NCBI GenBank assembly: GCA_947359465.1
Contig: OX375880.1
Span: 23,078,714-23,142,713, forward strand
Direction: 5' to 3'
Source of the DNA: Metellina segmentata
Taxonomy: Eukaryota > Arthropoda > Arachnida > Araneae > Tetragnathidae
Length of the DNA stretch: 64,000 bases
The stretch's first letter is position 1, and every line of letters begins with the position of its first letter. Below are positions 31,566-62,494 of the stretch, piece after piece. Below the pieces are notes generated by a model. It ran no database searches and was not told the DNA's origin. It saw only the letters and a list, made by a program, of their open reading frames with translations. Both the position numbers and the translations under genes were made by a program.

Positions 31566-32726
31566 ATGCCACGAAGTGCAGAGTTATCTGATTTCGAGAT
31601 AGGTGTAATCGTCGGGTACCACAGAAATGGCCGATTCTTAAGAGACATAGCTAGCGAGCTGAATTACTCAAAATCGAAAGTGGCCTATGTTATTCAGGCT
31701 TCGTCATCTGACCGTGGTTCAAAATTACGAGGTGTTGTCCTCGGGTCTTTCCCTTAAGGGACTGATCCCGGACCGTCTAGTACGACGTTAACTAAAAAAT
31801 TACCAATTAATTACCTATGTTATTCAGAAGTGGAAGGTGTGCGGTGATTGTCGGAATGTGCCCCGAGTCGGCAGAGCCACGAAATGGAAGATAGAGACCG
31901 ACGAGTATTGTCCAGAGAAATTCGCAAGAACCGCATCCTACCGATGGCCCACATACTCCAGAAGTTTCAACAGGCATCCGGGAGTGTTGTTTCGATTAAT
32001 ACCATCCGTAAGGAAGCACATCTGCTTGGTTTTAATGGTCGTGTTGCCGCCTATAGGTCTTTGATCACAAAGTCCAACGGCGCTGCTCGGTTAAATAAGG
32101 GCAAAGCACGTCGAAAGTGGATCGTAGATCAGTGGAAATGGGTTCTCTGGAGCAACGAACCAAGGTTCAACCTCTACCATTCGGATGGCAGGGTCTGGGT
32201 CTGAAGTCTAGCTGGAGAACGAATCCTGCCAGAATGCATTGTCCCCACAGTAAAGTTAGGCGGAGGTGGAATTATGGTCTGAGGTTCTTTCTCCTGGTAT
32301 AGACAAGGACCCTTGGTCCAAATTCATGGTAAGCTCAACGCCGAGGCCTACTGCACGATTTTGGAGGACAGTGGGGTCCCTACGTTGTGGCAGTTTTACG
32401 GGTTGGACCCATGTTACTTTCAGGACGACAACGCCAGCTGTCATGTTGCGAGGTCCATCATGGATTGGTATGGTGACAATGGGGTTAACCGAATGGACTG
32501 GCTTGCCCAGAGCTCAGACCTGAACCCTATCTAGAACCTCTGGGACGAGTTGGATCGCCGAATTAAAGGGTGCAACAACCGTCCAAAATCGGTGAAGGAA
32601 CTTACGTGTCTTCGCCAAAACGAGTGGAAGAAAATATCACTAGCCGTCATACAAGGGCTTGTGGAAAGCATGCCCCGGAGGGTTGAGGCTGTAATTGCCT
32701 CTCGTGGAGGCTCTACCAACTATTGA
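31566..32726 (+). pseudogene. Tc1-like transposase interrupted by a SINE and other lesions
   Basis: From ATG 31566: MPRSAELSDFEIGVIVGYHR and DIASELNYSKSKVAYVIQ (helix-turn-helix), where a 5'-truncated SINE (31698-31813) is inserted. After it the frame shifts to RRVLSREIRKNRILPMAHIL and VSINTIRKEAHLLGFNGR. WVLWSNEPRFNLY has lost the first catalytic Asp (SDE to SNE), and a stop follows RVWV. GGGGIMV precedes another stop, then CYFQDDNASCHVARS (second Asp). SSDLNPI is followed by a stop where the catalytic Glu should be, then NLWDELDRRIKG. The reading ends at TGA 32724. Related to the remnant at 8461. Confidence 0.9.
31698..31813 (+). mobile_element. 5'-truncated SINE with 14-bp target duplication
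   Basis: Flanked by CCTATGTTATTCAG at 31684-31697 and 31814-31827. It holds only the 3' part of the SINE (TCATCTGACCGTGGTTC ... CTAGTACGACGTTAACT) and a TTACCAATTAATTA tail. Truncation plus a long duplication indicates LINE-mediated retrotransposition. Confidence 0.93.
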
Positions 32727-33634: not shown

Positions 33635-33748
33635 ATTAAAAATTGGTGTCCAATGAATGAATAGTGCGATCTCCAGCGCATCGGAACTACGCATCCAGCA
33701 GATGTATATAAGGAGTTGTTCTTGAGCTGTTGTTAAAAATTTCTGCTG
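33635..33748. repeat. 114-bp direct repeat, left copy
   Basis: The same 114 bp recurs at 34954-35067 with about three substitutions; the two copies bracket the LINE fragment. It belongs to the 5' leader of the Tc1 element. Confidence 0.92.
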
Positions 33749-34953
33749 TAAGTTTCCGTCTGTTTTCAAGGGAAACAAGACCGCTTTCGAGGCCGAACTC
33801 GAAAGCGGTCTAGTTTCCCTTGAAAACAGACGGAAACTTGCTACTCTAAAATTCACTAACAAAATCAGAAGCCACAATAAGGACCACATTGCTCACAGAG
33901 CTTTCGATACTTGGACAGATAAGTCAAGGCTTCAGAGATCATCAACGCTGCAATTTGACAGAGACGTCAGAGGGGCCATCCATCTTGACCACTCCTCTCT
34001 GGACATTACTCAAGAATCACTTTTTCCTTCCAAGCCCCCTATGTATACTAAAATCAATTATAACCTACTGGAATCATGTTCAAAGAGAGAACCAACCCAA
34101 GTATTATTACAAAAAGGCGAAGACACTGTTCGTTCACTTTCCAGAGAAAACAGCGCAATAATCTACACAGATGATTCCTCTGATGTTGACTGTAATAGAG
34201 GCGGCGCAGGCATCTCCATCACTTACCCCTCAGGAAATAACGTCAAACTCAAAATACCCACTGGCCAAATTGCTTCAAACTTCACTAGCGAATTAATCGC
34301 TATTAAAGAGGCTCTTACCCATTGTCGCTCTCATTATCTAAACGACTCAATTAAAGAAATTGTAATCTTCTCAGACTCAAAATCAGCACTCGAAGCCATA
34401 CATAATGGTAAAACAACAATAACGCAAGAAATTAATACTCTTCTCCATTTACTAAATATACCTTGCACTCTCCAGTGGATCCCAGCTCATGTTGGAATTG
34501 AGGGGAACGAATGTGCAGATGCCCTTGCAAAGGAAGCACGAGACAAAGATCAACCTCGAGTAGTCACCTGTGCAGATGCAAATGCCATCGCCAGGCGAAG
34601 GATCTATAACCAGCATTTTAGCAAGGCAACAATCCCCGATCTAAACTGCCCAAGAAACCTCTCCTCTACAATAGCTAGGCTACGTACTGGACATTTCAAA
34701 GGCATGGAAATTTCACGAACTAATATAAAATCCTTTCCCATCTGCAGGCACTGTCCCCAATCGCAACTAACTCCAGATCATGTTTTCGACTGCCAGGCCA
34801 TTATTGGTTCCCTCTTTCAACTTGGAGCACCCCCAATCGAAATCCACCATAGCCATCGAGCTCCAGAACTTGCAGATCTTGTCACCAAGACTTTTGGAGG
34901 ACTCTAAACTTTTGCACTAGTACTGTATGCATAGACACGACAACAACAACAAC
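33749..34953 (+). mobile_element. 5'-truncated non-LTR retrotransposon with 5' fold-back
   Basis: It carries the 3' end of a LINE ORF2 and a (ACA)n/CAACAACAAC tail at 34939-34953. Its first 91 bp form an inverted repeat (33750-33790 with 33799-33839, one mismatch, 8-nt loop). The 3' arm is the coding strand, so the 5' arm is an inverted copy of it. Confidence 0.85.
33799..34907 (+). pseudogene. LINE ORF2 C-terminus: RNase H domain and zinc knuckle (5'-truncated)
   Basis: An uninterrupted frame to TAA 34905. The first part (SLENRRKLATLKFTNKIRSH) resembles the thumb/linker after a reverse transcriptase. An RNase H domain follows with its acidic residues: IIYTDDSS (Asp), SELIAIKEAL (Glu), IFSDSKSALEAI (Asp) and HVGIEGNECADALAKEA (His, final Asp). 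The end carries ICRHCPQ ... TPDHVFDC, the C-C-H-C knuckle usual at the end of such proteins. This is the layout of RNase H-bearing LINE clades (I/Jockey-related or similar). The reverse transcriptase and endonuclease are missing, so it is dead on arrival despite an open frame. The ATG at 34041 is internal. Confidence 0.88.
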
Positions 34954-35067
34954 ATTAAAATTTGGTGTCCAATGAATGAATAGTGCGATCTCCAGCGCAT
35001 CGGAACTTCGCATCCAGCAGATGTATATAATGAGTTGTTCTTGAGCTGTTGTTAAAAATTTCTGCTG
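34954..35067. repeat. 114-bp direct repeat, right copy
   Basis: Second copy of 33635-33748, continuing directly into the Tc1 transposase leader. Confidence 0.92.
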
Positions 35068-35103
35068 CATTGCGATTTAGGACACCTTTCAACGACTGAA
35101 AAA

Positions 35104-36117
35104 ATGCCTCGCCGCAGGATTCGAGCTCATTACGAGCAACTTTCAGAGTTTGAAAGAAGTCGTATCATTGGATTGAAAGAGGCAGGTTGGGCAAATCGGA
35201 GAATCGCTCGTCATGTGAGTCGAAGCGATGCGGCGATTAGAAGATGCTGGCAAGAGTGGGTCAACAATGGCAGATTTCAGCGTCATGATGGTAGCGGTCG
35301 ACGTAGGGCCACAACAGATCGCGAGGACAGAGTGATTGTCAGATCAGCTGTCACCGCGCCTGATTCATAGCTATCAACCATCAGTCGTGCGACCCACACA
35401 CGTGTGTCCACCATGACCATTCACAGACGGCTGAGAGAGCGAAATCTACGCTGGTACCGACCGTTACGCCTCCTGCCACACACGCCTGCACACTGTCGAG
35501 CCAGATTACAGTGGTGCTGGGCTCGATCAGGCTGGAATGATGCTCACTGGGGACGAATAGTCTTTAACGACGAATCCCGCTTCCAACTGTGTCCTGACGA
35601 TCATCGAAGATTTGTTTGGAGATGCTCAGGGCAGCGTGCCGATCCTGCTTTCACTATTCCACGCCACACGGGCCCGCAACAAGAAGTTATGGTCTGGGGT
35701 GCCATTTCCCTTGATACCCGGATCCCTTTGGTCGTCATTAGAGGTACACTTACTGCACAGCGGTAACTTAACGACATTCTGAGACCTGTTTTGCTACCGT
35801 TCCTTTCACAGTACCCTGGGCTTATTTTTCAGCAAGACAATGCCAGACCACATACGGCACGTGTTGCTATGAACTGTCTTCAAGCTTGTCAAACACTTCC
35901 TTGGCCAGCCAGATCACCAGATCTCTCTCCCATCGAGCATGTCTGGGATATGATGGGAAGGCGACTGCATCCGGTAGTGAATGTTAATGACGTAGTCCGA
36001 CAATTGGAGAAAATTTGGCAAGAAATACCACAGGAGACCATCCGGGAGCTTTATCGGTCTATACAACGCAGTGTGGCAGCTTGCATCCAGGCTAGAGTCG
36101 GGTCAACGCCTTATTGA
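35104..36117 (+). pseudogene. Tc1-like (DD34E) transposase, full length with two in-frame stops
   Basis: One reading frame of 338 codons runs from ATG 35104 to TGA 36115, broken only by TAG at 35368-35370 and TAA at 35764-35766. The order is normal: YEQLSEFERSRIIGLKEAGW and RRIARHVSRSDAAIRRCWQE (two helix-turn-helix motifs), GSGRRR hook, IVFNDESRFQL (Asp), VMVWGAISLDTRIPL, FQQDNARPHTARV (Asp), SPDLSPIEHVWDMMGRRL (Glu). No frameshift is present. This is the least decayed transposase in the window and implies recent activity of the family. Either stop alone inactivates it. Confidence 0.93.
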
Positions 36118-37542: not shown

Positions 37543-38150
37543 CCGGCTTTGCTCGGGTTGAAGTAATAACATGTTGATTGAAAAGTCATCATCAATTTTT
37601 TTTCATAAAAGAATGTTAGCATCATTTCAGTGTACGGGAAAGAAAATGTTATACCAATTTAACTTCTCTATCGCTTCTACAATTTACTTCGGACGCAAAT
37701 ATGTACATATGTTGTATCCAACCATATAGACCATTTCATATTCGTCACGCTTCTGCTGAAGTTGATTTTAAGTTTTCAAGTGTTTACGAATATTCCCGTT
37801 CATTCAATTTCAGTAAAAATCGCGGAACTTCGGTGGATAGTCTTGCATTTAGTTTTCCTATGAATATGTTTTCATTGTGTCATTCTTTCACCTAGTATGC
37901 GATATTTTCGAATTTCATGAGAGATGGCAAGTTAAATTATTACAGCATTCGTTACTAATTTAGTTTGAAGCAAAAGCAATTTTTCTTGAAAATTCCATTC
38001 AGCGGCAGGTGGAATAACGGAATTTCTGTTAGATATATAAAGCAGAGTTGACGTGTGTCTCTTCTCTATACTAATCCACCTTTTGATCAATCCAAACATT
38101 TGGTACACTTATATTTTAGAACCCTGTGGATATGATAAGCTACATATTAA
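37543..38150 (-). mobile_element. Helitron-like repeat, left arm of inverted pair
   Basis: It begins CCCGGCTTTGCTCGGGTTGAA (the inverse of a terminal hairpin) and runs through TTGTATCCAACCATATAG, ATTCGTCACGCTTCTGCTGA and GATATATAAAGCAGAGTTGA to AGCTACATATTAACCC. The inverse of this order is found at 39985-40618. Confidence 0.75.
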
Positions 38151-38250
38151 CCCAGGCCTCGTAATAGATTTTTTAATACAGGTGCACCTTGTGCACCTAA
38201 GTTTTTAAATTAGGTGCACAGATTATATTTTAGGTACACATTAAAAAAAG
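38151..38250. mobile_element. Truncated hAT MITE end (CAGGCCTCG family)
   Basis: CAGGCCTCGTAATAGATTTT followed by GGTGCACCTTGTGCACC, matching the right end of the MITE at 7492-8064. Confidence 0.75.
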
Positions 38251-38323
38251 TGAGTCAGTCAGTGAGTGGTATTGGAATTTTATATCTATAGATTCAAATA
38301 CCACTGACTCACTGACTGACTCA
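38251..38323. repeat. Hairpin of GACT/AGTC repeats
   Basis: Left arm 38251-38273 (TGAGTCAGTCAGTGAG...) and right arm 38297-38323 pair with one 4-nt bulge and a 23-nt loop. The sequence after it resembles a common arthropod repeat (ACAAGTCCTAGGAAGCTGAA). Confidence 0.75.
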
Positions 38324-39984
38324 TCACTGTATCTCAAGAACTACAAGTCCTAGGAAGCTGAAATTTTGCAGGGTGTTTCTTCTTATACCGTAGAGGTGCA
38401 CTAAGAAAAGATTTTGAAAAATTCGAATCCTAAGAGGCCTAAAATTGACCTTAGGCCTAAGACAAAAGCAATTTGAAATCGCCATAGAAATAAACATTGA
38501 GTATAAAACGATTGCTATACGCATCTCTGATTGCTTTACCAGTGTTGATGGAAAAACAATTTTCTTAAAACAAATTAAATTATAATGTTCATGTTTGAAC
38601 TGAATTTTTACTTCTTCCCAAGATGAAAGTAATATTTATAAATATTTGATTGATGAAGAAAGAATATTTAGAACATTTAATTTCATATTTACTTAAATTT
38701 TATAATGGAGCACGAAAAGCCCAAACGATAAACTCATTGATCATAAAAGCGAATTTTGCTACTAAATAGGTATCTGGTACCTCAGAATTAATGTTTAATT
38801 TTTTTAATTTGATTTATAATTCTTTTTTGGGGTATTTGAGTTGAAAACGAGATGGTTGCGATCATATTTGAGGACTCCCAAGTATTATAAATATGTGATC
38901 TTTATTGCTTATAAATCATTGTCTTCCTCAATATTCATCCAGTTTTTTGTGGAATTGTTTTACTTCAGAATATATTCAGGAAATCGAAATTCAACACGCT
39001 AGAACAGATATTTTTTTTTCTTAATTCTTTTCTTTTAAGGATTGGAATTTTGTTTGTGTTTGCATTATGTGTTCCGGTATATTACCTATTCCAGAAATAT
39101 TATTTAGGAGTTGGATTTTATTTATTTATTTACAGCAAAATATCACTAGACATGGGTACTTTCGTGGTGGTATATGTATACTTCCACCAACTTTCTTTAA
39201 ATCTTTTGTTCAATACGTAATGTGTGTGTAGATAAAAATAAATAAAATTTACAAATCAAAATATTTTTTAATGTGTAATTTGTTATTTTAAAATAACATG
39301 AAAAATTTCAAAAATAACTTTAAAACAAGATGTGTTACGTTAAATTAAAACTGGTAGTTATACTTTGTAGTTCAAAATTTATTTCAAAACTTTGATACAG
39401 CTTTTCATTGAAAGACGATTAAATAAATTAAATTTCATTTGTTTTTCGTGTTTCGTGGATGTTATTAAAAGCTGTACTCCATAGGGAAGTAACTACATAT
39501 ATCACTCTAAATAGATACGTGCTTTCCATTTAGAAACCAAATTTCTGATCTTAAAAAGTACCATAAGGGTTCAATTTAAAACTATGCGTTTAGAAAAGGG
39601 AATTTTTAACAAGACTTTGTTGATCTTGGAATAATATCACACTAAGTAATTTTGAAAAATCGAAATTTTATGTCTCTAGAGGCAGAAAGTCGAGGTTGCT
39701 TACTCTATTATTGAAGCTTTTCTTACGAAACTTAGATGCATGTGAATCGTTCGTTGAAAGTGATTTTATTTTTGTAAAAGCGCTGTAAAAACAACCTTCT
39801 GTTTATAAAAAAAATTTTATAGATTGGGTTTAAATTGTATACTCTGATAACATGTATTCCTAACAAAAGCTCTGTTATTCCACATGCACTGAATGTAATT
39901 TTCTGGAAAAAGTGCGTTTGTTTCAAATTAAATTAGTCACGAATGCCGTAATTTTTTTAGCCCCCTTGGACAAATAGAACACGG
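38324..39984. other. Spacer between the inverted Helitron-like arms
   Basis: AT-rich; repeat-like at its left edge; no gene identified. Confidence 0.4.
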
Positions 39985-40618
39985 GTTAATATGTAGCTTA
40001 TCATATCCGAAGGGTTCTAAAATATAAGTGTACCAAATGTTTGGATTGCTCAAAAGGTGGAATTATCCTTTCACATACAGACAAACGTCAACTCAGCTTT
40101 ATATATCTAACATAAGTTCCGTTATTCCACCTGCCGCTGAATGGTTTTTACAAGAAAATTTGCGTTTGCTTCAAACTAAATTAGTAACGAACGTTGTAAC
40201 AATTTAACTTACCATCTTCTCATATTGATGATGAAATTCGAAAATATCGCATACTAAGTGAAATAATGGTACAATGAAAACATATTCATAGGAAAACTAA
40301 GTACAAGACTATCCACCGAAAATTCGCCAGTTTTACTGAAATTGAATGCACGGGAATATTCGTAGTCACTCCAAAACTTAAAATCAACTTCAGCAGAAGT
40401 GTGACGAATATGAAATTGATTATATGGTTGGATACAACATATATGCATATTTGCGTCCGAAGTAAATTGTAGAAGCAATGGAGAAGTTAAATTGGCATTA
40501 AATTTTTTCCCCGTACATTTAAATGATGCTAAGATTCTTTTATGAAAAAGAATTGATGATGACTTTTCAATCTACAAATTATTAATTCAACCCGAGCATA
40601 GCCGGGTCTTTCTGCTAG
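39985..40618 (+). mobile_element. Helitron-like repeat, right arm of inverted pair
   Basis: The 3' end has the hairpin ACCCGAGCATAGCCGGGT, then CTTTCTG, CTAG at 40615-40618 and T, the Helitron 3' signature. The body is the inverse of 37543-38150. Confidence 0.8.
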
Positions 40619-40834
40619 TAAAGTTATAAATAAATGCCTCTAGCTCTGGCTATTTAAGATCGGAAAGCTAGAGGTCGGTTAGAATAATTGACCAAAACAT
40701 TCTCTGTCTACACATAAGGAAAATTCTCAACCACTCACGAAACCAGACGATTTTCACCATGTTGAGTTCCAAGAAGGTTAGAGGTTTTATCTTTGAAAAT
40801 TATCCTTTCATTTAATGAAACATGGATACATTTA

Positions 40835-40944
40835 GAGCTGTCACATAGATTCAGAAATCTGATTAACACATATGCTTATTGAATAATTTACCTTATTCAA
40901 TAAGCATATGTGTTACTCAGATTTCTGAATCTGTTTAACAGCTC
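40835..40944. repeat. 110-bp near-perfect hairpin downstream of the AP-2 alpha gene
   Basis: Arms 40835-40886 and 40893-40944 are 52 bp each with a 6-nt loop (TTTACC). The inner 40 bp have one mismatch; a short mismatched block lies near the base. It starts 55 bp beyond the stop codon of the minus-strand gene, so it would fall in its 3' UTR or just after. It may be a tiny MITE or an RNA hairpin. Confidence 0.9.
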
Positions 40945-40998
40945 GAAAGATACCAAGTACAGAAATATATAGTTGAAACATAACTAATACCAAAATGT

Positions 40999-43833
40999 TC
41001 ATATTATGAGTTGCACAAGTCTGGAAACTTCTTCGGCGACCTCTTTTTTAGCAGCTCGAACCGTCAGTTGGTATGTATAAGTTGGATGGTGAGGCTGAAG
41101 TCTAAGCAAGATTCCCACTTTTGATGAACGAGAATGGAATACTCCTGAACAAACATAATTTTCTGGATTTGGATCTATCTTTTCGAGAATACCAAAACCA
41201 AAGCCTTCTAGTTTCTTTACGAGTAGATCCTTATCTATGATATATTTCGCAGGAAACGTTATTATCACTTCGAGTTCATGAAGAATCGAACTGTGCCATC
41301 TGAGTAGAAAGTCTTCTGAACTCATAATCACTGGCTCTATGAATTTATTCAAAGTCATCGGAATCTGTATAGGTATAGATTGATGTGAATCTGCCAAAAT
41401 AAAAGTAAGGGACATACATGGCGTGTAGCTGAAGTCTTGTAAGCTTTCTACTCTAATTTCTTGTTCTATTTCTGCCTTAGGATGTACAGTGGTTGAGCAA
41501 GGTTCCATCAGCAAAACCCATCTGTGAAGATTATTTTGGAATGGAAAATGGGCTAAAAAGCCAATAAAAGCATGAGGTGTTTTATTTTGATATTTGAAAC
41601 TGATTCGACCTTTGTGCAAATAAAATTGGCTTTCCGTGCACACCCGCAGAATATTACTTTCGTATATAATTCCACTTCTGTGCCATACGAGTTCAATTAA
41701 TGCTTCACTTGTAGAACTTTTCAATGAAGTAGATATAGATCGACTGATTGGATTTTCTTTAGGATTTTTAATGTTATTGAACACATCAACCAACATGTCA
41801 AAATCAGATAATGGCACATTTGTTTGAGGTAAAGGTGGTTTTGTTTCTATGATTGCATCTTTTATGTGTTCATTATTGAAAGCATTGTACGTTCCGGAAA
41901 CTGAGCTAGAACGACTTAGTAGAGAAGGTTTGCTTCTGACTGGAGTTTTTTCTTTGTATTTTTGACAAGTTCTGTATTTTAACCTTAGCAAAGCATTTTC
42001 GATTACTGAAGTTCCTCTTTTGAAACATGGCATTTCATCTAGAATTGTTGCTAAGTAATCATCGTTTGCATTATTGCACAGATTTAAATATTCAACTGCT
42101 CTCTGCTGAATTTCGGTGTAAGGACTGCTGGAATTAGCTTGAAAAATATTTTTCACGTCATCTTTTATTTCAGGAAACAGATTAGCAAATTTTACATAAG
42201 TGGTAAGTAAAAGAGCTCGCGTCTTTCGTGTGCTAATATGAAATTTCGAATGCAGTAAATTCAATTGCACAAAAGGACTAGATCTGATGTCCACAGCTAT
42301 TAAATTCCCAAATTCCCCAAGAATGTATGCAGCCAGTATAATCAAATTTTCGTTGCACTTGGTGGTTTGGACTGCCTCGAATACACTCTTTGCAGCATAG
42401 CCCTGTACCGTTGTGTTATTAACCACTAGATGAATAAATCTATACCAAACTTCTTCAGTTACAAACTCACCACCTAAATGTAATAGGTTTAAAATAGTAT
42501 CTACGTACCACATGGGATCATCGAAATATTTTTCAGCGAGCAGAGAAATTTTAAGAATTGTTTCTTCCCTTACTGATACGCTTCCAGTTTCGAGGTAATC
42601 AAACATCTCTGCAACGATTTCTTTAAAATTATTTTTATCACACAAGACGCACAAAAGGTCTGCTGCCTTCTGTCGAATGCACATATCTGCTTCGTTACTC
42701 AAAGAATCTATGATGGGCTTCAACTGTTGCTTGATTCGTTCCCTTGAAACATCGCTTTCACTCAAGAGGGACATTGCCTCTAAAGATAAATAGCGTAAGT
42801 TGCACTCTCTTTGCTTAAGACACATATCCAAAATATTACAAGCTCTAGTATATAGGGAAGGGGAAATTTTGATATGCCGAAGTAAATTAATAGCTTCAAA
42901 CAATATTGCGTGCTTAGAAATACGATGTTCCGCTTTCTTGGTTTTCGGTGGTTCTTGAATCTTGTTGAAAATTATCTCTATGCTCTCCACAAGACGGGAA
43001 CATAGTGTTGGCTCGGTAGGAAAATCAAAGTATTGCAAGAGTCTTAATAGTTTCACACACAACCAGGGTGCACAGACAAAATAATAATTGTAATCCTGAA
43101 GATCCGTGCATGAAGATCTAGTAAGGCGATTAAGTCTGCAAATTGCGATTGACATGCAATTTGTTCCGTTAAGTCTACCAGCTTTGGCTAACTCTTCAAT
43201 AAGGCTAACCGCTGATGTAATCACGCCAAGATGTTGATCAGTAAGAAAACTTACAATACGTTCTGGATACTCTTTTTCAGGTATAACATCTGGTTTCATC
43301 TTGAAAAGGGTAAGTAAGCACAGAACAGCGCTTTGTTTCACAGTATCCATCCTATCACCAGAGAATAAAAAGTGCAAAACACGTTCTCCAAGAGTATCTG
43401 CTATTTCACGATTTGCCATGTTGGCTATAAATTTTAAAGCTAAGTTTTGATGATAAGGGTTGATCGATATCAAATCAATTTCTAAGGATTTGATAACCAA
43501 TCGCATGAGATTTGATTTTTCATGCATTACGATGGATATGAACAAATATCCTATGAATTTTTCACTGTATTTTGCAGAAGTCAGAAGATTGACTGCTTCC
43601 ATGTATCCATAATCGAAATTATGACCCATTAGGAATATAAAAATTAGTTTACAGATGTATTTCTTCTTTTTTATCTCTAATACCTTGTCGTCAGCGAATT
43701 TGGATCGAATGTTAGCAAGTTCTTTGTTGATTCTCTTGATTTCCGCTTCTTTGGACTTGCAGTTTCTGATATCAGAAATGAAAAGAGAAAGGCCTCGCAT
43801 ATCAGTTTTGAGCATGATGATGCTTTGAAACAC
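40999..43833 (-). CDS. AP2A: AP-2 complex subunit alpha, intronless (retrogene)
   Basis: A 944-codon uninterrupted frame encodes a full-length alpha-adaptin, the large AP-2 subunit that links clathrin, PIP2 membranes and cargo in endocytosis. The N-terminus carries MRGLSLFISDIRNCKSKEAE and IKRINKELANIRSKF, including the Arg of the dileucine site and a KKKKYICK basic patch where alpha binds PIP2. The trunk of HEAT-like helices has VKQSAVLCLLTLF, DLQDYNYYFVCAPWLCVKLL, NLRYLSLEAM, GEFGNLIA and SKFHISTRKTRALLLTTYVK. A hinge of about 110 residues (near 630-740) is Ser/Pro/Lys-rich and diverged. The C-terminal appendage keeps the ligand-site Trp (FLLRW) and DPNP, ending LTVRAAKKEVAEEVSRLVQ. Canonical animal alpha genes have many introns, so a single-exon copy implies retroposition. 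Identity falls well below that of usual AP-2 alpha. Starts at residues 7 or 12 are possible alternatives. No poly(A) trace remains. Confidence 0.93.
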   Translation of the reverse strand: MFQSIIMLKTDMRGLSLFISDIRNCKSKEAEIKRINKELANIRSKFADDKVLEIKKKKYICKLIFIFLMGHNFDYGYMEAVNLLTSAKYSEKFIGYLFISIVMHEKSNLMRLVIKSLEIDLISINPYHQNLALKFIANMANREIADTLGERVLHFLFSGDRMDTVKQSAVLCLLTLFKMKPDVIPEKEYPERIVSFLTDQHLGVITSAVSLIEELAKAGRLNGTNCMSIAICRLNRLTRSSCTDLQDYNYYFVCAPWLCVKLLRLLQYFDFPTEPTLCSRLVESIEIIFNKIQEPPKTKKAEHRISKHAILFEAINLLRHIKISPSLYTRACNILDMCLKQRECNLRYLSLEAMSLLSESDVSRERIKQQLKPIIDSLSNEADMCIRQKAADLLCVLCDKNNFKEIVAEMFDYLETGSVSVREETILKISLLAEKYFDDPMWYVDTILNLLHLGGEFVTEEVWYRFIHLVVNNTTVQGYAAKSVFEAVQTTKCNENLIILAAYILGEFGNLIAVDIRSSPFVQLNLLHSKFHISTRKTRALLLTTYVKFANLFPEIKDDVKNIFQANSSSPYTEIQQRAVEYLNLCNNANDDYLATILDEMPCFKRGTSVIENALLRLKYRTCQKYKEKTPVRSKPSLLSRSSSVSGTYNAFNNEHIKDAIIETKPPLPQTNVPLSDFDMLVDVFNNIKNPKENPISRSISTSLKSSTSEALIELVWHRSGIIYESNILRVCTESQFYLHKGRISFKYQNKTPHAFIGFLAHFPFQNNLHRWVLLMEPCSTTVHPKAEIEQEIRVESLQDFSYTPCMSLTFILADSHQSIPIQIPMTLNKFIEPVIMSSEDFLLRWHSSILHELEVIITFPAKYIIDKDLLVKKLEGFGFGILEKIDPNPENYVCSGVFHSRSSKVGILLRLQPHHPTYTYQLTVRAAKKEVAEEVSRLVQLII

Positions 43834-44515
43834 TATTCAGGATTAACTTTCTGAAATTTCAGCTGTCAAAATAAATCAAAACATGCAAATGCTTTTTGAA
43901 CGTATAATAATTGGAATAAACACAATCGTTGCCATATTCAACGCTTTGTAATATAACAGAAAAATTATATTTTTATAATAAAGTTTATTTATGTGAAAGC
44001 GAATCATAAATGCATTCAATCATTAAAAGTATAAAATGTAACGCGTAAAATAACATAAAATATATTTTTTAATTTTACCACCCTTTTAGCGTAAATGATG
44101 CACATGCTTAAACTCTTTTTTAATTGATGTACGAAATCTGAATGACACGTTTTTATACTCGCGTCATAAAATCGGCTGCCTTTTGGTGTTACTAGTTTTT
44201 AAAAAAAATAAATATTGTGTAAGACTTGTCCAATGAAAGCCACTTGATACTCTGTTCAATCAACAGATAGTAAATGAGGTACGATTTTTACGTAACCTGT
44301 AAAAGTTCAAAGAATTGGAAAGAATTGTTCACTCTCAATTTATCACGAAATCTGGTTGTGTTATATTTTTATTTCAGAATTGTTCTAATGTCGATTTATA
44401 TTTAAAACCATATTTACTTTAACCAGAGCATTCTTGATCCATTTTATACCTTCTGTTGACTCTTTTTTCTTCACAAAATTAAATACCTATCAACGCTAAT
44501 GTTCTTTTTATTACA
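43834..44515. other. Upstream flank of the AP-2 alpha gene
   Basis: AT-rich. Any promoter of the minus-strand gene should lie here, but no defined element can be supported. Confidence 0.4.
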
Positions 44516-44516
44516 T

Positions 44517-44640
44517 GCTAGGAGAATCACCCGGCGTTGCTCCTGTTGAATTTATTAACTCTTTGAGGAACACGATTTTTAAAAAAATCCCTAGTTGTAC
44601 AGAATTGTTTTTAACATAACAAATGGGGGGGAAAGTTCGT
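44517..44640 (-). mobile_element. Helitron-like 3' end fragment
   Basis: CTAGGAGAATCACCCGGCGT ... CCTGTTGAA matches the inverse of the CTAG-plus-hairpin end seen at 40590-40618 and 21076. Confidence 0.5.
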
Positions 44641-45229
44641 TTTAACTATTTAACATAAAATGTAACTCAAAAGGAAAAAAATATTAAAATTGCAATAAAT
44701 CCTTAATTACAGAGTGGTCAGTACAAGTCATTGAATCACACTTCTATTTCTTCCAAAACAAAGTGGCACCTTCCAGACCATTTCTTTTAAAGAGAACATG
44801 TCCTCTTTTTCCGCTCAGATCTTTTTTTCACTCTTTTTTAAGTCAGATCTTTTTTTCACTCTTTTTTAAGTCAGATCTTTTTTGTCCTCATTTTACGGTT
44901 GTTCACTTTTTGATCTTTTTGATCTCTTTGTTCATAATTTCGGATTGCGTTAAAAAATATATTTCATACTTCAAACCTTACACACTCTTATATTCACATT
45001 GTCTACTACATCGTTATGTAAACCACAGCTGTTTAAATATGTACTATTTAAATATGTACTATAGGGGGGGGGAAAGAGATACGTTGATTGTTTATATTTC
45101 AGATTGTTTTGATTTAATAATTTTAATTTAATTGGATTTAATCATGCCTTCAAAATAAAATACAGTTACACCAAAAAATGAATAAAATGTGATTTAACAT
45201 TTCAACTCACTAGAACGCTAAATCAGTAA
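44641..45229. other. AT-rich spacer
   Basis: Holds only the 28-bp tandem repeat listed next and a G run near 45064. Confidence 0.4.
44816..44883. repeat. 28-bp tandem repeat, about 2.4 copies
   Basis: CAGATCTTTTTTTCACTC begins units at 44816 and 44844, with a partial unit at 44872. Confidence 0.92.
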
Positions 45230-45714
45230 AATAGTTTCCCAACCACAAAAAACCCACGAAGCGCTCGAACTCTTTTAAAAGCAAAGACAGGTGATCGTGC
45301 ACCAACTAGGAGAATGAATGTTTAGGCTCACTCTCGCCTAAAATCCCCGCTAATGTCTGAAACATGTCCAAAATGCCTCTGTTCACGCGCCGTCCCCACA
45401 ACTTCAGTTTGGATTTAAATGCAGCTACTTTGTCTGCCAACTTGAAACCAGTTGTCACATTTGTCAAAATTAGAAAATAGAGACATACAGAATTCAGAAA
45501 TCATAATTGAAGCTCTAGTAGCAGAACAAATTTCAAGATCTGATTTACCGCCTCCTAATTTGAGTGGACATTTCATAGATAAGAACCGCACAAACACGAG
45601 ATAAATACACCAAAGTAAATAAAATGGAAATAATTTAATATTTCTTGGACGGCCCGGTACCATTTGATCCACGGACCGGTACCGGTCCGCGGCCCGGGGG
45701 TTGGGGACCACTGA
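45230..45714. mobile_element. hAT-like terminal fragment (GGTACCGGTCCG type)
   Basis: The inverted end is CAGTGGTCCCCAACCCCCGG, followed by CCGCGGACCGGTACCGGTCC. This end style is known from hAT elements in many animals. The opposite end was not found. A 98-codon minus-strand frame (45415-45711) overlaps but is not identifiable as transposase. Confidence 0.6.
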
Positions 45715-46041
45715 TATATAGGGTTTCCAGCATAGGTAGTGCAGTGGCGCTCGAGTTAAGTTGTCTCATACTGCTGCTGTGACGTCATAACCGGAAGTTG
45801 AATTGAGTTGTTTTCTAATCGTGACGTCCAAACTAGAAGTACAGGCGCCTCAATCCCTTGATAGTACTTTAGGGTACGTCCATAGTGCACCGCTTCCAGC
45901 TTCCTGCTTTACCGCTTAAACCGCGGCAGTTGCAAACAGCGTTGTAAAACCGCGCGATGCTAGCAGGGGGTGGTTATAGTGCAACGCGCGTTGAACCGCA
46001 TATCAGTTTGCAACATGAAGCTATCACATGAGGATCTATTG

Positions 46042-46151
46042 CAGGGATGGCATACCTGTGACCCGCGGGTCACACTGGCCCACGCAGTCTTTTTAAATGA
46101 CACGCGTTGATTTTTATAAACTTATCATTATCATTTCATCATATACATACA
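46042..46151 (+). mobile_element. hAT-like terminal fragment
   Basis: CAGGGATGGCATACCTGTGA, then CCCGCGGGTCAC, is a typical hAT end; it is cut off by the Helitron at 46152. Confidence 0.5.
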
Positions 46152-46789
46152 TCTATATATATAATTCTCTTACGTGGCACGCAAAAAAGACGTTATTTGT
46201 TACCGCGTTTTGGCAACATTGTACGATTATTTGTTTTTCACGAAGCCTCGCGCTTGAATTGAATTTATAGCGTTATCGGATGAAATTTTATTGAAAAAAA
46301 ACATGAATTTTAATCGAGCTATTGCAGTTAATAATAGAAATCAAAGAAAGCGGAGGATCTTTTCAGGGCCATTTAAAAAAAGGTCCTTTTCAGGGCCAAC
46401 AACTATAGTTCAACAAGACGCTTGCACTACAACTTTCGACAACTAACTCAATGAAAATGCGTGGGTGGCTCGAGTGCAGGGGTCAATATATACACTCAAA
46501 CATCATTCTGGGTAGTTAATTTCCAAATCAGCCGTCACATTTCGAGTCAAAATTTTCTCAAAGTTTTCATCTGAATTCAGATTCTATCGGTACTGTATAT
46601 ATCTTTTCTGAAAAATAGCAAAAAAATTTAGATTTAAAAAATATTTTTTGGAATATCACATTTTGTAAACAATCCCTTCTGCTAGGACACATGTCTTCAT
46701 TGATACGAGCGAAGCGAGCATAGGTTCGCGCAGCGAAGCAATCCTCCGGGGGTTGGCGAGCGTTCGCGAGCAGGGGGTGGGCCACCTAG
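46152..46789 (+). mobile_element. Non-autonomous Helitron, 638 bp
   Basis: Starts TCTATATATATAATTCTCTT after A, and ends in a GC-rich zone (GCGAGCGTTCGCGAGCAGGG) running to CTAG at 46786-46789, followed by T. This is the full A|TC...CTAG|T pattern. No Rep/helicase. Confidence 0.82.
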
Positions 46790-46886
46790 TTTTTGATATT
46801 TTTCGAACCCTTCTTTTAAAAACATGAAGAAAATATCAGTGTTAATAAAAAAAATTGCACAAAGGATTTTTGTAAAAGGTTTTAGA

Positions 46887-47885
46887 CAGGGTGTAAAAAA
46901 ATCATGATTAAAAAATAAATCAATTTGAATTTTTATTTAAATCGGATTTTTTTTTATTTAAATCAGATTTTTTTATTTAAATTTCTGTAGTTTCTCAACT
47001 GTTTTTACAAAAAAATGTATAATTTTTTTAAATAAAAAATTGAGTTTGTGACATGGTAAATCAATATTTACTTAACTTGTTTAATTTTAAAACACAAGTT
47101 GACATCCTACATAGTTTTTCTTGAGTAAATTACATCATCATGTTAACAGATTTATCAGTAAGAGTAAGTGACAGACCTGAACTACAGTGTGAGAAGTAGA
47201 ATAGAGGACAGAGAAATAATCAGACTACAGTAAATTCTAATAATAAAACTGCCGAGCAGCAATAATAAATAAATTTTCACTTAGTTTTAATTCATATTGG
47301 ATCTTTCTTTCTTCCTGCTGACATTTTAATGGCTGTGTGAATATGTACATTTATACTCTTTAATCTCTATTGCACACCACAAGAATAAGCTGAGCCTTAA
47401 AAAACTTTACTTCGAACTGTGTGGTTTTTTTTTAGTTTATGAAATCAGTCTCCCCTTTAGTTTATAATTTTAAATCAAACTGTTACGTACTTCCTTTAAG
47501 TGATTATATTATGAGTGTTGTTAATCAGGAATGTTTATACATTACTCTTCGTGGCATTTAGATTTATGATGTCATGTGTGTTTACATTACTGTTTCCAGT
47601 ATATAGTATATTCTAAGTTACAACTGGATGTTGCAATCTTTTATAATATGCAGTAATTGACCCAGTCCCTCTTTGCTGGGTGTAGCCATTAGTGCTGAAA
47701 TCACCATGAGTGAAGAAAGATTAAAGCATTTTACCGCTTCTGTGATTATTCTGCGGTGCATTTACTTAGTTATAAAAAAGTGTGTTTAATTGTGATTTAA
47801 ATCAGTGATTTAAAAAAAATCATTTGATTAAAATCAGGATTTTAATTGTTGATTTAAATCTAGTGATTTAGATCTTGACACCCTG
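46887..47885. mobile_element. hAT MITE rich in GATTTAAATC, 8-bp duplication
   Basis: Begins CAGGGTGTAAAAAAATCATG; the inverted right end is CAGGGTGTCAAGATCTAAAT. GTTTTAGA occurs exactly at 46879-46886 and 47886-47893. Subterminal GATTTAAATC palindromes recur at both ends. Confidence 0.92.
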
Positions 47886-56105: not shown

Positions 56106-58908
56106 TCCTTGTGAATATTTCTTTCTTTTGTGTCAATAAAATTCACTGTATGTGTGTCTATTACATGGTATTGTTTGTCTTATGTCTTGTGCAACATTGC
56201 CAAATTTGGCCCTTGAGCCATAAAAACCCTAAACCAACTAACCAAACCGGACCGTCAACAATATCATATTATATTGCTTCATTGCGACGTCAATTAAAGT
56301 GCCCCCCCCCCCACCAATATAAATTACGTTATCAAACTATACCAAAACTGTGATAAGCTACATTTTAAGGAAATCCAATTTTTTACTCGTCAGAAAACGT
56401 CTATCTTTCAACAACGAAACCGAAACTATGCTGTTCCTGTTTTATTGTGTCCTCTATTGCTATCCTCTTTTGTTCTTTAAGGCTGTGGGGCCTGAAATTG
56501 CATAATTTTATCATGTGATTACGGAATGAAACTTTCTGTAATTTGATTCGCTATTCGTAGTCTGTATCTGGCAGATTTTAGACACCGGCGTTGTTACTGA
56601 AATGTGACTGAAATCTTCGTAATATGTCAACATTCGATTTAAATGTTTATTTTTATTCGAGTCGAATAAATGTTACTCTGCTTAATCTGTGTCGATAGCC
56701 AATTTTTTTCAGCAATAACTGATTGCTGGACGAATTTTCCAGTTTGGTGTGTGTGTTAAAATTTTGTGTTTGAAAAATATTGGGTATGAATACACTTTAT
56801 ATATTTCCTTGTGTTGTATGCATTGAATTTTGTTACCAGGTTTCTCTTATTTGTTTTTTCTGTTTACTATATTTTTCAATCAATTTGCCTTTTGTTGTTT
56901 TTGCCTTTTCAGCTGAAAGTGCTTATCCGATTTGATGTGTTAACTAGATTAGTTTGATTAGAATGACGTTTCATATCATACGTAGTATGTTTGTAATATT
57001 TTTTAATTGTTTGAGTTTAAAAAGATGTTGAAAAACAAGACTTCCTGTTTAATAATTTGTTTTGGATTTTTAAACATTTTTTCCTTGTATTTCTCTGAAA
57101 ACTGCTGATGATCAGCATTCTGGAAGTAGTCTTCCAAAACCTTCCTTCCACATTGGCCATGCCATCAGTCTTCTATAATATATGGGTTTCTTAACGGAAA
57201 TAGTGCTTAATAATTCTATACAATAAGTTAATCTCGTAAAATTATTCTTCATTTTTGTACAGATAAAGTTTATGGAGATTTCTTATTCCCCTTTGAAACA
57301 TCCCTCTCCTTATTAAGAATTTATATTTTTCTCACTGCCCATAGTAAAATCCCCTATATTCCATGCAAAATACTAGTTCTGGAGACTTGTAATATATTTT
57401 ATTACTTCTTTTGTAAAAGGGTGAGACTTTACTGAAACACATTTGCCAATTTTTTAACTTATGTCCCATTTTTCTTTACTTTTGTGTTCAGTCTGATATA
57501 CTGCAGGAATGTTTAGCAAGATGTGAAAAATAGTGTAACTTTGTTTGTGAAATGTTTCTACAATTTTCCTCTATCCCCCGATTTTGGTGTTTTTGAATTC
57601 AGTAGATGCTACCACTAGTTACAATGATTGCCAATTGCTGAAGGCCTTGAAAGCTGTATTATGATCGCATGTACTTCCATAGGCAAACTTGAGCGATGTA
57701 TGTGGGTAGTTGTTTGCTGTCCTATGTTGCTTTTAACCATGTGGAAATTGTGATAAGAATAGAAGCAGTATCTGTTAACGCAGAACTTCAAACCATTGGA
57801 AATTATTAGTTGGAATTCAACTACTCATCCATTAAAGTGTGCGCCATATGAACGAACCATAGGAAAATTTTCAGAAGTGCAATCTAGATTCACCATTTTT
57901 CAAAACATGAGCAGTGCAACTTTGTCTATCAAAACATATTTTAGGGTAAATTTGGACTGCACTACTATTTATTGTATTGTAAATTATTTTTCCATTCGTG
58001 GCTAATTTCATCACATGTCAATTTATACAAGGACAGGAGTGGCAAATGTCAGCATGGGTCATAATGCCTTCATAAATCTATCTGAATAGTAAATTTTGCT
58101 GTGGTCTAGGTTTAAACATCAGCGAAAATGCCACTGTATTCATGATTTATGCGGAAAAAGAATTGTTATTCCAGAGTTTAAAAATATTTAATCCCTAAAG
58201 AGAAAGATTCTAGACAGGAAACAACTGAGGTGACTACCTTTAAAAATAGATTAATTGAGCTAATGCATTGGTGTTCAATGGTTCAATAATCAATCAGTTC
58301 TTTAAAAAAATTCATTTATTTTAAATTTTAACAAGTACAGATGATTGGATCTACTATGAGGTGCTCTGACCTTCTATATGCTCTCATTTCTAGATTGTGC
58401 CTTCCAACTTCTTCACAGTGTTTGGCTGCCTCACAACTTGCCATTTGGCGTGATTAATGCCACCAAGATTTCTATTTAGGTGGGGGGGAAAAACAGCATA
58501 CAAAATTGCGCTGTTTCTCAGTTTAATAATAATGAATTAGTTCACATTTTTTTTATTTTGTTAGAAAATAATTTGGGTATATACCCTTTTCAAAATAAAA
58601 TTTGCTTCCATTCTTTGCACAAATATTTCACTGATATGAATTGCCCATTACCTGTTAAAAGTTCGAACAGCATTTTACTGCTGTGGGCCTAATTAATTAT
58701 TTATACCTAATTTAAGCCCTATATCAGTGTCTCTAAGGGGAAAAAAATAGAATTATAAAAACCAGTTATGAGAATTATTAATATTTTACTGGTATTCAGA
58801 TTGTCATGTGCTAATTTGAATAGATGTGAAATAATGTAAATAGAAAATCTAATTGATTACATTGATTTCCAGGTAATGTAAACAGTTGTTATTTCATGCT
58901 CCCTAAGA
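56106..58908. other. Intergenic/5' region of the SEL1L-like gene
   Basis: AT-rich, with a C10 run near 56301. A possible acceptor TTTCCAG ends at 58872, so the start-codon exon may have a spliced 5' UTR. No other gene recognised. Confidence 0.45.
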
Positions 58909-59695
58909 ATGTGGAGAATTCGCTACCTTACATTATTCTACTTTGTGTGTTGCATTTTTCTTTTAACGAAGACTGTTACCTCAGATAAAGATGATAAGAA
59001 ATCTGAGGAAGGACTACATTCACAATCAGATCCACAGACTGAGGATTCTGTTGAAGCTAGTGATACCGATGACGATGACTCAGAATCGAACACTAAACCC
59101 CTGTTTGCTTTCGAAAACGTCTTTGGTGATTATGTAACTAGTGAAATGATGAGCAACTTCTTAGAAAAGAAAGACAAGAAAGAAGACAACAAGTATCTCC
59201 TTACTTCAGAAGAAGTGGACAGATTAATGAAACTGGACAAATTAATGGACAGGTTAACTAAGGATTCACTTGATAATGAAATCTTGAAACAAGAGAAGTT
59301 TAAACAGTTACAAAAAGATTTTTATGATAATATTGTGTTGATGAAAGAAGGAATTCAAGAAATAGAAGAAGAAGAATTTGAAGAGTTACTGAAGTATAGG
59401 GCAGAATATAATAAGATGAAAAAAGAAGAACTACCTGGTTTTTCCAACAAAAAATCTGAATACCCTGAAAGCTCTTCACACGAGGATGTGTCTTCTTCTT
59501 TCACGTTTAAGGATACAGATGAGAACCCCACCTTTAGCGATTTGAATTCTAAAGAAATTTATCATACATCTACAGCAAGTCATAGCTTGATTCCTCCCGA
59601 GATGTCTAGTGCTAAAATTATTGTAACTGAATCGATTCCAAAGCCTAAGCCCAAACCTAAAGTAGAGAAAGAACTAACTGAAGAAGAGAAACAAG
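58909..59695 (+). CDS. SEL1L: SEL1L/Hrd3-like ERAD adaptor, first coding exon
   Basis: The ATG at 58909 follows an in-frame stop at 58879, fixing the start. Residues 1-25 are a signal peptide (MWRIRYLTLFYFVCCIFLLT, cleavage near VTS|DK), so the product enters the ER. A long, highly charged region follows: acidic stretch EASDTDDDDSES, Lys/Glu-rich predicted coiled coil (about 95-180), Ser-rich linker, and PKPKPKPKVEKELTEEEKQ. The exon ends at 59695 (GT at 59696), phase 1. Identification rests on the next exon, which matches the segment preceding the Sel1 repeats of SEL1L, and on the acidic secreted N-terminus. SEL1L binds the HRD1 ubiquitin ligase and feeds misfolded ER proteins into retrotranslocation. 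The fibronectin type II domain of vertebrate SEL1L is absent here. The Sel1 repeats and membrane anchor must lie beyond the window. Confidence 0.68.
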
Positions 59696-62494
59696 GTAAC
59701 ATATTTTTTACATATAATTTTATCAGAATTATCTAGTTTCTTTAATTTTTAATGCAATGATAAATTATTTTAGATTGTCATCTTTAGAAACTATTCTTGT
59801 CATGGTACCAGCTAGGAGAAATTATTGAGGGAGAGGGCTGAGAAAACCTTCACGTATGTTTCCAGAACACTCCATTAGTTGCAGGTTAAGGTGAAAATTA
59901 ATGGTTGCCACTCACCACATGGTGACAATGTTTGAAAGTGGAGACAGAAAATTTTTGCTACAGTCGCCACATTTACTTAAAAAAACATTAATTTTTTGGT
60001 GAAACCTCCGATTTTACGTTTTTTTTTCGAGGACTAAAAAAAAGAAAGAAAAACGTCTGGACACACATACACCAGGGTTCCCACGGTCCTTGTAAAGTCC
60101 TTAAAAGTCCTAGAATTTGTTTTTCCTTACTAGGGGCCCTTGAAAGTCCTTGAAAATTAGGAAACTTGGTGGAAAGTCCTTGATTTTTTTTAACTAGTAC
60201 ATAATAGCGTAATTTCGTGTTGCATTGCTACTTGTCCAGACTAGTTTCCTCCAAAGCAGGTGTGCCATTTGAGCGTCATTCTGAATGAAACCGATGTTTC
60301 CCGCTTTGACACTACAAGATATACTAGTAATGCTATGTCTAGATCGTCCATTTTCCACAGTATTCTGTCCGTCTAAGTTGACACCTCTGGTCTACGTTAA
60401 GACAGCCATCTTGTTATGTCCGCCACATAATGACGTATCACGTTCGCTAGATAACACCACTGCTTTCTTAGGAAACCGTAGCTTTAGCAGTCAGGATGTC
60501 ATTGAAAACCTGTCACACATCCAAAGAAATGAAGCCAAATTCTTATTGCAAAAATATAAAAGTTACAATTGAAAAAAAAAATTTTAAGAAAATTACATTA
60601 AAGATTTCTATTGATGAAAATTTTCTGCAGAATTCAAATCCGTTGAAATTTTTCTCTATCTTTAACGATCACAAAGATAGAAACTCAGACTAGATAATAA
60701 AGAAGCCCCAACACCAGTCAAAACTTTTGATTTATTTTGTTACTCAAACAAAATAAACCATGACAGACGTCTGTTGTAGGCAGTGGACGACAGGAAAATA
60801 GAGATTGTGTCATGTAGATCGAACCGTCTGAACCGAGAGCTCCCATACTCTTCTTCGTGCGACTAAAATAATTTATCGCACGACCGAAATTGATATGTGT
60901 GCAAGTAGCCTGATAACATTGAGTTGAGACAAAAAGCAAAATAAAAAAAGAAAGTCCAAATTTTTACCAAAATTGATGATAAACTTTATTTTTTTTGGCT
61001 ATCACAGTAGTTTTAAAAAAATTGTCTTTTTTTTTTTGTATTCACATTTTTCTTTTTAATTGACAACTTTTGTGTTTGCCTTGTTTTAGGTCGTTATAAA
61101 AAATTTTAGGTCCTTGAAAAATTTGTTTTGGGTTTTGAAAAGTCCTTGAATTTTTTTTGGATAAAGGTGTGGGAACCATGTACACATATATATATAACAT
61201 GTGTATGTATTCTACAAAATATGTGAATGCTTGTAAGTGGCTACTTACAAAATTTCTTTATTTTCAACTTTAGTTACAGGTCTTGTTTAACAAATGCTGT
61301 GAGGTATTGAACATTTTCTTTCCTAGTTACAAATTGTAGCAGATCTGTCTTCAACAAACTTGAGATAGAAGTGGAAATAATCTTTAAATTAACGAAATAT
61401 GATTTGCAAATGAAGGTATCACAGATACAGATACTTGAAAAGAACACTAAAAATTTGTATTTAGGCTTTTGGTATTGGTAAAAACATCACATCTCTTACA
61501 ATATCAACTTTGTTTTTTATTAGTAAAGAATATTCAGAACCCATTCATTTCTTCATTTCCATCGCCAAACAAACAGTCCTTTTCTACTTTTAGAGTCCAA
61601 ATTTCTTTTTTCATTTTGGTATGTGAACATCACCTCATTTCCAAATACTTGAAACGAATTAATGTTCTCTGGATTTTGCCAAACCATATCTTATAGGATA
61701 TTTTGAGTTTTAAAACTGATGGTCCACTTCTGTTTAAGAGACATACATCTGTATTAATTACTTCAACCCAGAACTTCTTTTCCAGGTAGGCAGCCCTGGG
61801 AATGGTTCTTGCTGCTTCTATAATGGTTTTATTTTAAAATTTCACTCTTCCATATTGCTCAAGTGTATATGGAGCACTTTTTTGCTGATGCATGCCTTCT
61901 TCCAAAAGTTTCATAACTTCTGTATTCTTAAACTTACTTCTTCTGTTATCACTACACGGTACTTTTAAATTTTCTTTCAGTTTGTCTTTCAATCATTCTC
62001 AAATATATCTCCAACTTATTTCCCATTTCAGATTTATATTTTGGAAAGTATGCTGTTCTGTGGCTTGAAAAATTGTTCTTTTGCAGAAGAAATTTCGAAC
62101 TCAAATTTTATTGAGTCTGCATGAATTACTTCACAAACTGTTTAGACTTTACTTTCACTACATGTGAGTGGTAGTCTATGTTGGTTTCGAGACATGGCCT
62201 GTAAAATATATTGTCCTATTTATATGGGATATTATCCAGTTTTAAGAAAGATCTTATAGTACTAACATTTTGATGTGCATTTAAATCAGTATAAAAAAAA
62301 ATATACCAAAAAGTTTGACTTTCTTCATCTTTTAACCAACTTTCATGATTTAAATCGGTATTTATTGGACTATGTTATAAATGGTTTAAAACTTTTTCCT
62401 CTTTGTTTTTTATTTTAATGTCAGTTTTATTACTTGAATGAATTTTAAAATTTTTGTTTTTAATAACTGATTTTTTTCTTACTGTCTTTTTCAG
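59696..62494 (+). other. Intron of the SEL1L-like gene
   Basis: GTAACA donor to CTTTTTCAG acceptor. It contains a hAT-like element at 60073-61180. The rest is AT-rich with nothing recognised. Confidence 0.65.
60073..61180. mobile_element. hAT-like element with GTCCTTGAAA subterminal repeats
   Basis: The left end CAGGGTTCCCACGGTCCTTG and inverted right end CATGGTTCCCACACC form a short TIR. AGTCCTTGAAA-type motifs recur at both ends (about 60095-60180 and 61110-61155). The 8-mers outside do not match clearly, so age or end placement is uncertain. No transposase. Confidence 0.65.

Follow-up and report, generated by a model that had tools for sequence, protein, structure and literature searches.

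A single-exon AP-2 alpha-adaptin gene in the spider Metellina segmentata and its proposed place in a fast-evolving second alpha lineage of orb-weavers

The window analysed here is a 64,000-nucleotide stretch of contig OX375880.1 from the tetragnathid spider Metellina segmentata (assembly GCA_947359465.1). On its minus strand, at exactly 40999..43833 as in the original prediction, lies an intact reading frame of 944 codons, which begins with GTG and is open from stop to stop up to 43836. With the first ATG at codon 7, the likely coding sequence is 43815..40999 (-), uninterrupted from ATG to TGA and encoding 938 amino acids, with an in-frame stop just 5' of the frame. The frame contains no intron and no internal stop and is, in the sense used for retrogenes, a copy without introns. 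The remaining five frames of 40999..43833 contain 35, 55, 69, 73 and 80 stops, and for 938 codons to stay open by chance, given the base composition of the window, the log10 probability is about -30. No other stop-to-stop frame within 38000-47000 reaches 300 amino acids. The window was also searched by tblastn, the queries being the window protein, one canonical spider alpha and a relative from Trichonephila clavipes, and no further alpha fragment was revealed. The GC contents of the first, second and third codon positions are 0.435, 0.329 and 0.322, respectively, and those of the flanks 0.347 and 0.324. A possible polyadenylation signal (ATTAAA, 40811..40816, minus strand), recognised as a consensus match only, is found 182 nt past the stop.

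The window protein (P0001) has the full AP-2 alpha domain layout. The order is an Adaptin_N trunk (PF01602, 5.3e-107; residues 32-589; 42067..43740), the appendage sandwich subdomain (Alpha_adaptinC2, PF02883, 5.3e-06; residues 720-815; 41389..41676), for which the score of 27.1 bits is slightly below the curated cutoff of 27.6, and the appendage platform subdomain (Alpha_adaptin_C, PF02296, 5e-25; residues 831-939; 41017..41343). A fourth Pfam match, Cnd1, overlaps the trunk and scores 26.6 bits, its cutoff being 26.4. In a search of the PDB the protein matched AP-2 alpha (6owt_A) with 888.6 bits over residues 11-939, compared with 169 bits for AP-1 gamma, 116 for AP-4 epsilon and 85 for AP-3 delta; alpha is therefore the closest of these four adaptins. 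The three domains in order and the length of the 6owt_A match agree with the trunk, hinge and complete appendage that had been read from the sequence originally. The AF2 model (mean pLDDT 79.8, pTM 0.55) consists of a trunk that is a solenoid of helices, a hinge disordered at residues 624-704 (41722..41964, pLDDT <50) and a folded appendage with beta-strands in the sandwich. When this model was used in a Foldseek search, ranks 1-16 were all AP-2 alpha chains, trunk or appendage, with 6qh6_A (E 1.9e-38) and 2vj0_A (E 8.8e-18) the top matches for the trunk and the appendage, respectively.

Elsewhere in the window there are broken Tc1/mariner-like transposase frames with HTH_Tnp_Tc3_2 matches above cutoff (15280-15906, 31848-32204 and 35371-35766, all on the plus strand) and weak, sub-cutoff matches of the same kind at 22620-23126 (+, HTH_Tnp_Tc3_2) and 35056-35370 (+, HTH_38); the frames adjoining the broken transposase frames resemble later parts of the same elements. 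One other frame of more than 300 amino acids is present, a 393-codon frame at 33726-34907 (+) about 6 kb from the adaptin gene, which has an RNase H domain (E 1.1e-16) and is probably the remnant of a LINE-type retrotransposon. A 284-codon frame at 58882-59736 (+), with a hydrophobic start and an acidic body, had no Pfam match at 1e-3 and no PDB match at E 1, and may be the opening exon of a secretory-pathway gene of the host. Directly 3' of the adaptin stop is a palindrome (40831-40948; arms of 56 nt, 91% complementary, 6-nt spacer) that resembles a short foldback or MITE element, and 5' of the gene (44803-44894) a pyrimidine-rich unit occurs three times at 28-nt spacing. A search against Rfam gave no matches at gathering scores.

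The closest proteins are from Trichonephila clavipes, Araneus ventricosus, Nephila pilipes and Argiope bruennichi, which are 51-53% identical to the window protein among the best 120 of 3591; the other matches in those 120 are 45-48% identical, barring one Toxocara record. Further relatives came from profile searches, namely another Araneus record, another Argiope model, P0124 from Caerostris darwini, P0125 and P0160. These protein searches covered the best 120 of 3591, 3313 and 2131 passing proteins, and a short or weak homologue in Parasteatoda, Stegodyphus, Uloborus or other spiders could fall outside the best 120. In a 36-row tree the window protein and nine database proteins form one clade (support 100/100), the stem of which has 1.45 changes per column. 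Judged by its sequence, the gene is a member of an old and rapidly evolving second branch of AP-2 alpha, here termed alpha-B, that is shared with orb-weaving spiders. The nine relatives are seven records from five araneoid species, which supplies the presence in related spiders that had been proposed as a check, together with P0125 and P0160; the models of four of them are partial (717, 756, 839 and 895 amino acids). The two Argiope records, P0005 and P0123, are identical at 704 of 708 aligned residues, which makes one locus annotated twice more likely than two genes. The T. clavipes alpha-B record (P0002) is labelled UNVERIFIED_CONTAM; it is 77% identical to the Nephila copy and so is most likely a spider gene. 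Within alpha-B the Nephilidae and Araneidae (NCBI taxonomy) separate, and the window protein represents one of three deeply branching lineages, with support of only 94/75 for its exact position.

Forcing the window protein to group with the canonical spider alpha cost 222 log-likelihood units (p-AU 8.9e-50), the group for this test having been chosen after the tree was seen. The alpha-B rows sit on long branches, whose meeting in the tree prompted a warning from treekit. Since the branches are long on both sides, shared replacements were counted at the 574 sites that are invariant, with at most one exception, in the 26 canonical rows. Of these, 82 are changed in the window protein and uniformly in three araneoid rows, and at 51 of the 82 the replacement residue is the same; shuffling within residue type gave a mean of 20.9 such sites and a maximum of 35 in 10,000 shuffles, a result that answers the long-branch concern only in part. 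On the AU test and the shared derived residues, an independent, private retrocopy of canonical alpha is rejected. The prediction of a diverged, second-type alpha-adaptin thus holds, with the revision that the gene is not a retrocopy private to this lineage, as the protein falls in a 100/100 clade with orb-weavers of two families.

As regards the age of alpha-B relative to the spiders, AU tests did not reject its grouping with every canonical alpha of spiders (p 0.303), with spider alpha minus lgn8 (p 0.21) or with the alpha of T. clavipes, C. darwini, Parasteatoda and lgn12 (p 0.20). Sites with a spider-derived state were too few to be informative, numbering 0 and 2 at strict settings and 7 and 9 at looser settings. 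At such sites most alpha-B letters are neither ancestral nor derived and the rows disagree; at the 7 looser-setting sites the window protein has one ancestral and one derived residue.

Canonical alpha genes in animals are multi-exon. As the window copy has no intron, an old retroposition of an alpha mRNA is the most likely origin, and we regard retroposition as the likely source of the window gene. No poly(A) tract was detected near the stop, where the only A-run of at least 8 within 2 kb is one of 9 A at 1979 nt, and the two 1.5-kb flanks share no 11-mer or longer that could represent an exact target-site duplication; in an old copy, erosion of marks of this kind is to be expected. Two pairs of imperfect, AT-rich direct repeats lie to either side of the gene (38675/44400, 23 nt, 83%; 39289/44046, 18 nt, 89%) and were judged, because of their distance and composition, to be due to chance. 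The introns may instead have been lost by another route. The canonical T. clavipes protein P0042 is without one internal 33-residue block that is present in P0012, as if an exon had been skipped.

The intronless state could also date from a second round, in which alpha-B arose by DNA duplication with its introns and the window copy was retroposed later from an alpha-B mRNA. Secondary duplication does seem to occur in this clade, given the two alpha-B records of Araneus ventricosus, which are on different contigs and share 765 of 839 residues in their alignment. The length of the window branch (0.93 in the 36-row tree) would make such an event old, unless an unsampled parent breaks the branch, and we consider this history unlikely while giving it more weight than any of the other alternatives.

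Conservation with respect to the Parasteatoda canonical alpha is uneven along the protein, with 74% identity over residues 1-100, 48-59% in the remaining trunk, 22% in the hinge, 27% in the sandwich and 43% in the platform; in the hinge, FDMLVDVF of the window protein aligns with canonical LLVDVF (LVDVF against LLVDVF). R21, which we take to be a dileucine-side residue of alpha, aligns with an Arg at 43765..43767 and is present in all 26 canonical rows and in all seven alpha-B rows that extend over it; the N-terminal counts are out of 7 since three partial alpha-B rows are without the N terminus. The same holds (26/26 and 7/7) for the KKKY..K patch at 43648..43668, equivalent to K55-K57, Y58 and K61, in which K55, K56 and K61 are presumably PIP2-site residues. 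R11, K31 and K43 are invariant in the 26 canonical rows; of the 7 alpha-B rows, 6 have lost R11, 4 have lost K31 and 2 have lost K43, and the window protein keeps all three. The K57E/Y58E form of alpha is described as PIP2-minus in PMC7192580.

According to PMC5694535, W840 is the centre of the appendage site, with DPF/FxDxF motifs binding the platform and WxxF motifs the sandwich. The equivalent Trp (41296..41298) is found in all 26 canonical and all 10 alpha-B rows. The retention of R21, the KKKY..K patch and W840 is in agreement with the original prediction that the PIP2/dileucine-side residues and the appendage Trp remain. At the platform positions that we number, by assumption, F837, E907 and R916, the window protein carries the changes F837L, E907Q and R916Q, and its platform may therefore be weakened too; other rows covering all three positions change at most two of them (P0125 has C at F837; at E907 Nephila has Q and P0160 has D; at R916 Araneus P0003 has H and P0160 has K). 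R905 is retained in all 9 alpha-B rows that cover it. In the sandwich, F740 and G742 presumably form the WxxF pocket, if the numbering is as we assume. Position 740 is F in 24 of the 26 canonical rows and Y in 2, and G742 is present in 26/26; neither residue is retained in any of the 10 alpha-B rows, and in the window gene the canonical F-Y-G is replaced with K-Y-Q (41587..41595). The WxxF motif of NECAP contacts the alpha sandwich (PMC3794858), NAK kinases use a WxxF motif and the NECAP of Caenorhabditis elegans is without it (PMC6706699).

A protein with its trunk and N-terminal patch retained and two sandwich residues lost might be supposed to act as a dominant modifier, which would compete for sigma2 or coat partners and make no working AP-2. 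A mere competitor would not need a recognisable platform or the Trp that persists in 10 of 10 rows, and such a role is distinctly improbable.

The eight canonical spider-group rows (lgn8 omitted) are 92-96% identical to one another, or 89-96% for nine rows with lgn8, and the window protein is only 47-48% identical to the eight. The two forms coexist in T. clavipes (alpha-B P0002, canonical P0042) and in C. darwini (alpha-B P0124, canonical P0018). In the 676 columns shared by all four sequences, the canonical alphas of these two species differ from each other at 32 positions and their alpha-B proteins at 254 (Poisson-corrected ratio 9.7), a comparison that excludes the most conserved stretch for both forms because the C. 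darwini alpha-B model is without its N-terminal part. With the hinge removed the differences are 20 and 207 of 582 columns (ratio 12.6). Replacement of the canonical gene, by which the window gene would be the sole alpha of its species and do the housekeeping work, is very unlikely in view of the persistence of canonical alpha beside alpha-B in these two relatives and the distance of the window protein from so uniform a canonical group.

The constraint on the window protein follows that of other alpha-B lineages. It is changed at 27 of 200 sites where four araneoid alpha-B proteins keep the canonical residue and at 67 of 152 where they are variable (P=2.3e-10); when P0125 and P0160 were used as the reference the figures were 39/295 and 71/144 (P=2.0e-15). 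The same test gave 38/200 against 82/153 for P0125, 52/199 against 93/152 for P0160 and 49/305 against 101/214 for T. clavipes alpha-B. In 100 neutral simulations that took canonical alpha to 48% identity, by substitutions only and over the whole path rather than the window branch alone, 20-45 stops accumulated (mean 31.8), and the gene has none. The site constraint shared with other lineages and the absence of stops therefore indicate that purifying selection has kept the gene, as had been claimed, and the window lineage is, to judge from its substitutions, under constraint at the protein level. A retropseudogene of canonical alpha that is young or in decay, and still open by chance or because it is recent, would suit an intronless gene among broken transposon frames, but with 48% identity and no stop, a pattern of constraint common to other lineages and a position inside alpha-B it is excluded by the simulation and the site test for all practical purposes.

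The best reading of these sequences is that alpha-B would be a working alternative alpha that gives AP-2 a changed appendage. From its fold and conservation, alpha-B is predicted to pair with sigma2 and to join beta2 and mu2 in an alternative AP-2, which would still bind PIP2 and dileucine cargo; that pairing with sigma2 on PIP2 membranes persists is suggested because the first 100 residues are more conserved and the trunk is intact. PMC3591783 reports that the human alpha/sigma2 hemicomplex, when purified, is able to bind dileucine motifs, and that in C. elegans the hemicomplex is partly functional and alpha nulls are viable. Since the platform Trp is retained and the sandwich residues are changed, the alpha-B appendage would keep recruitment through DPF/FxDxF motifs and bind WxxF partners (of the NECAP, AAK1 and synaptojanin types) poorly, and coats containing alpha-B would recruit a different set of accessory proteins. 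As canonical alpha is nearly unchanged in the same species, alpha-B probably acts in a restricted tissue.

Taken as a whole, a divergent second alpha beside the canonical one in at least two orb-weavers, derived from an old retroposition and forming an alternative AP-2 with changed partners, is the account that we favour with some reservation. A bolder form of it would have spiders possess a second, retroposition-born AP-2, with an alpha that is without the WxxF site throughout the clade, evolves about 10 times faster, escapes recruitment of the NECAP/AAK1 type and serves perhaps as a germline or silk coat; this is conceivable and, on present evidence, doubtful.

Compared with canonical AP-2 alpha, alpha-B is alike in domain order, the KKKY..K patch, R21, the platform Trp and the fold of the AF2 model, and unlike in being only 47-48% identical, in the replacement of F740 and G742 and in the single exon of the window gene. 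Vertebrates have two alpha subunits per genome, AP2A1 and AP2A2, encoded by similar multi-exon genes. The spider pair resembles these in that there are two alpha forms per genome, and differs in that alpha-B is strongly diverged and fast. Like functional retrogenes, the window gene is an intact intronless copy of a gene generally known to be multi-exon; unlike them, it has no retroposition marks that could be found, and the canonical alpha persists in two relatives. Amphioxus SYCP1 is an example of such a functional retrogene and of retrogene replacement (PMC5803294). Alpha-adaptin is strongly constrained, and in alpha-B a paralogue changing about 10 times faster has been kept across two orb-weaver families. 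Its retained Trp and two lost sandwich residues amount to a natural experiment that could separate two functions of the AP-2 appendage. A literature search, within the text that the sources made available, found no report of a spider AP-2 alpha paralogue.

Several alpha-B records are named 'AP-2 complex subunit alpha-2', the same as canonical ones, and alpha-B can therefore be mistaken for the housekeeping gene. Two canonical-type records of Uloborus diversus, P0006 and P0016, are 96% identical, come from contigs that differ in length and perhaps represent a separate, recent duplication. The alpha-2 record of Toxocara canis (P0007, 1192 amino acids), which scored highly with 53% identity over 47% of the query, has the appearance of a gene model that was fused or duplicated.
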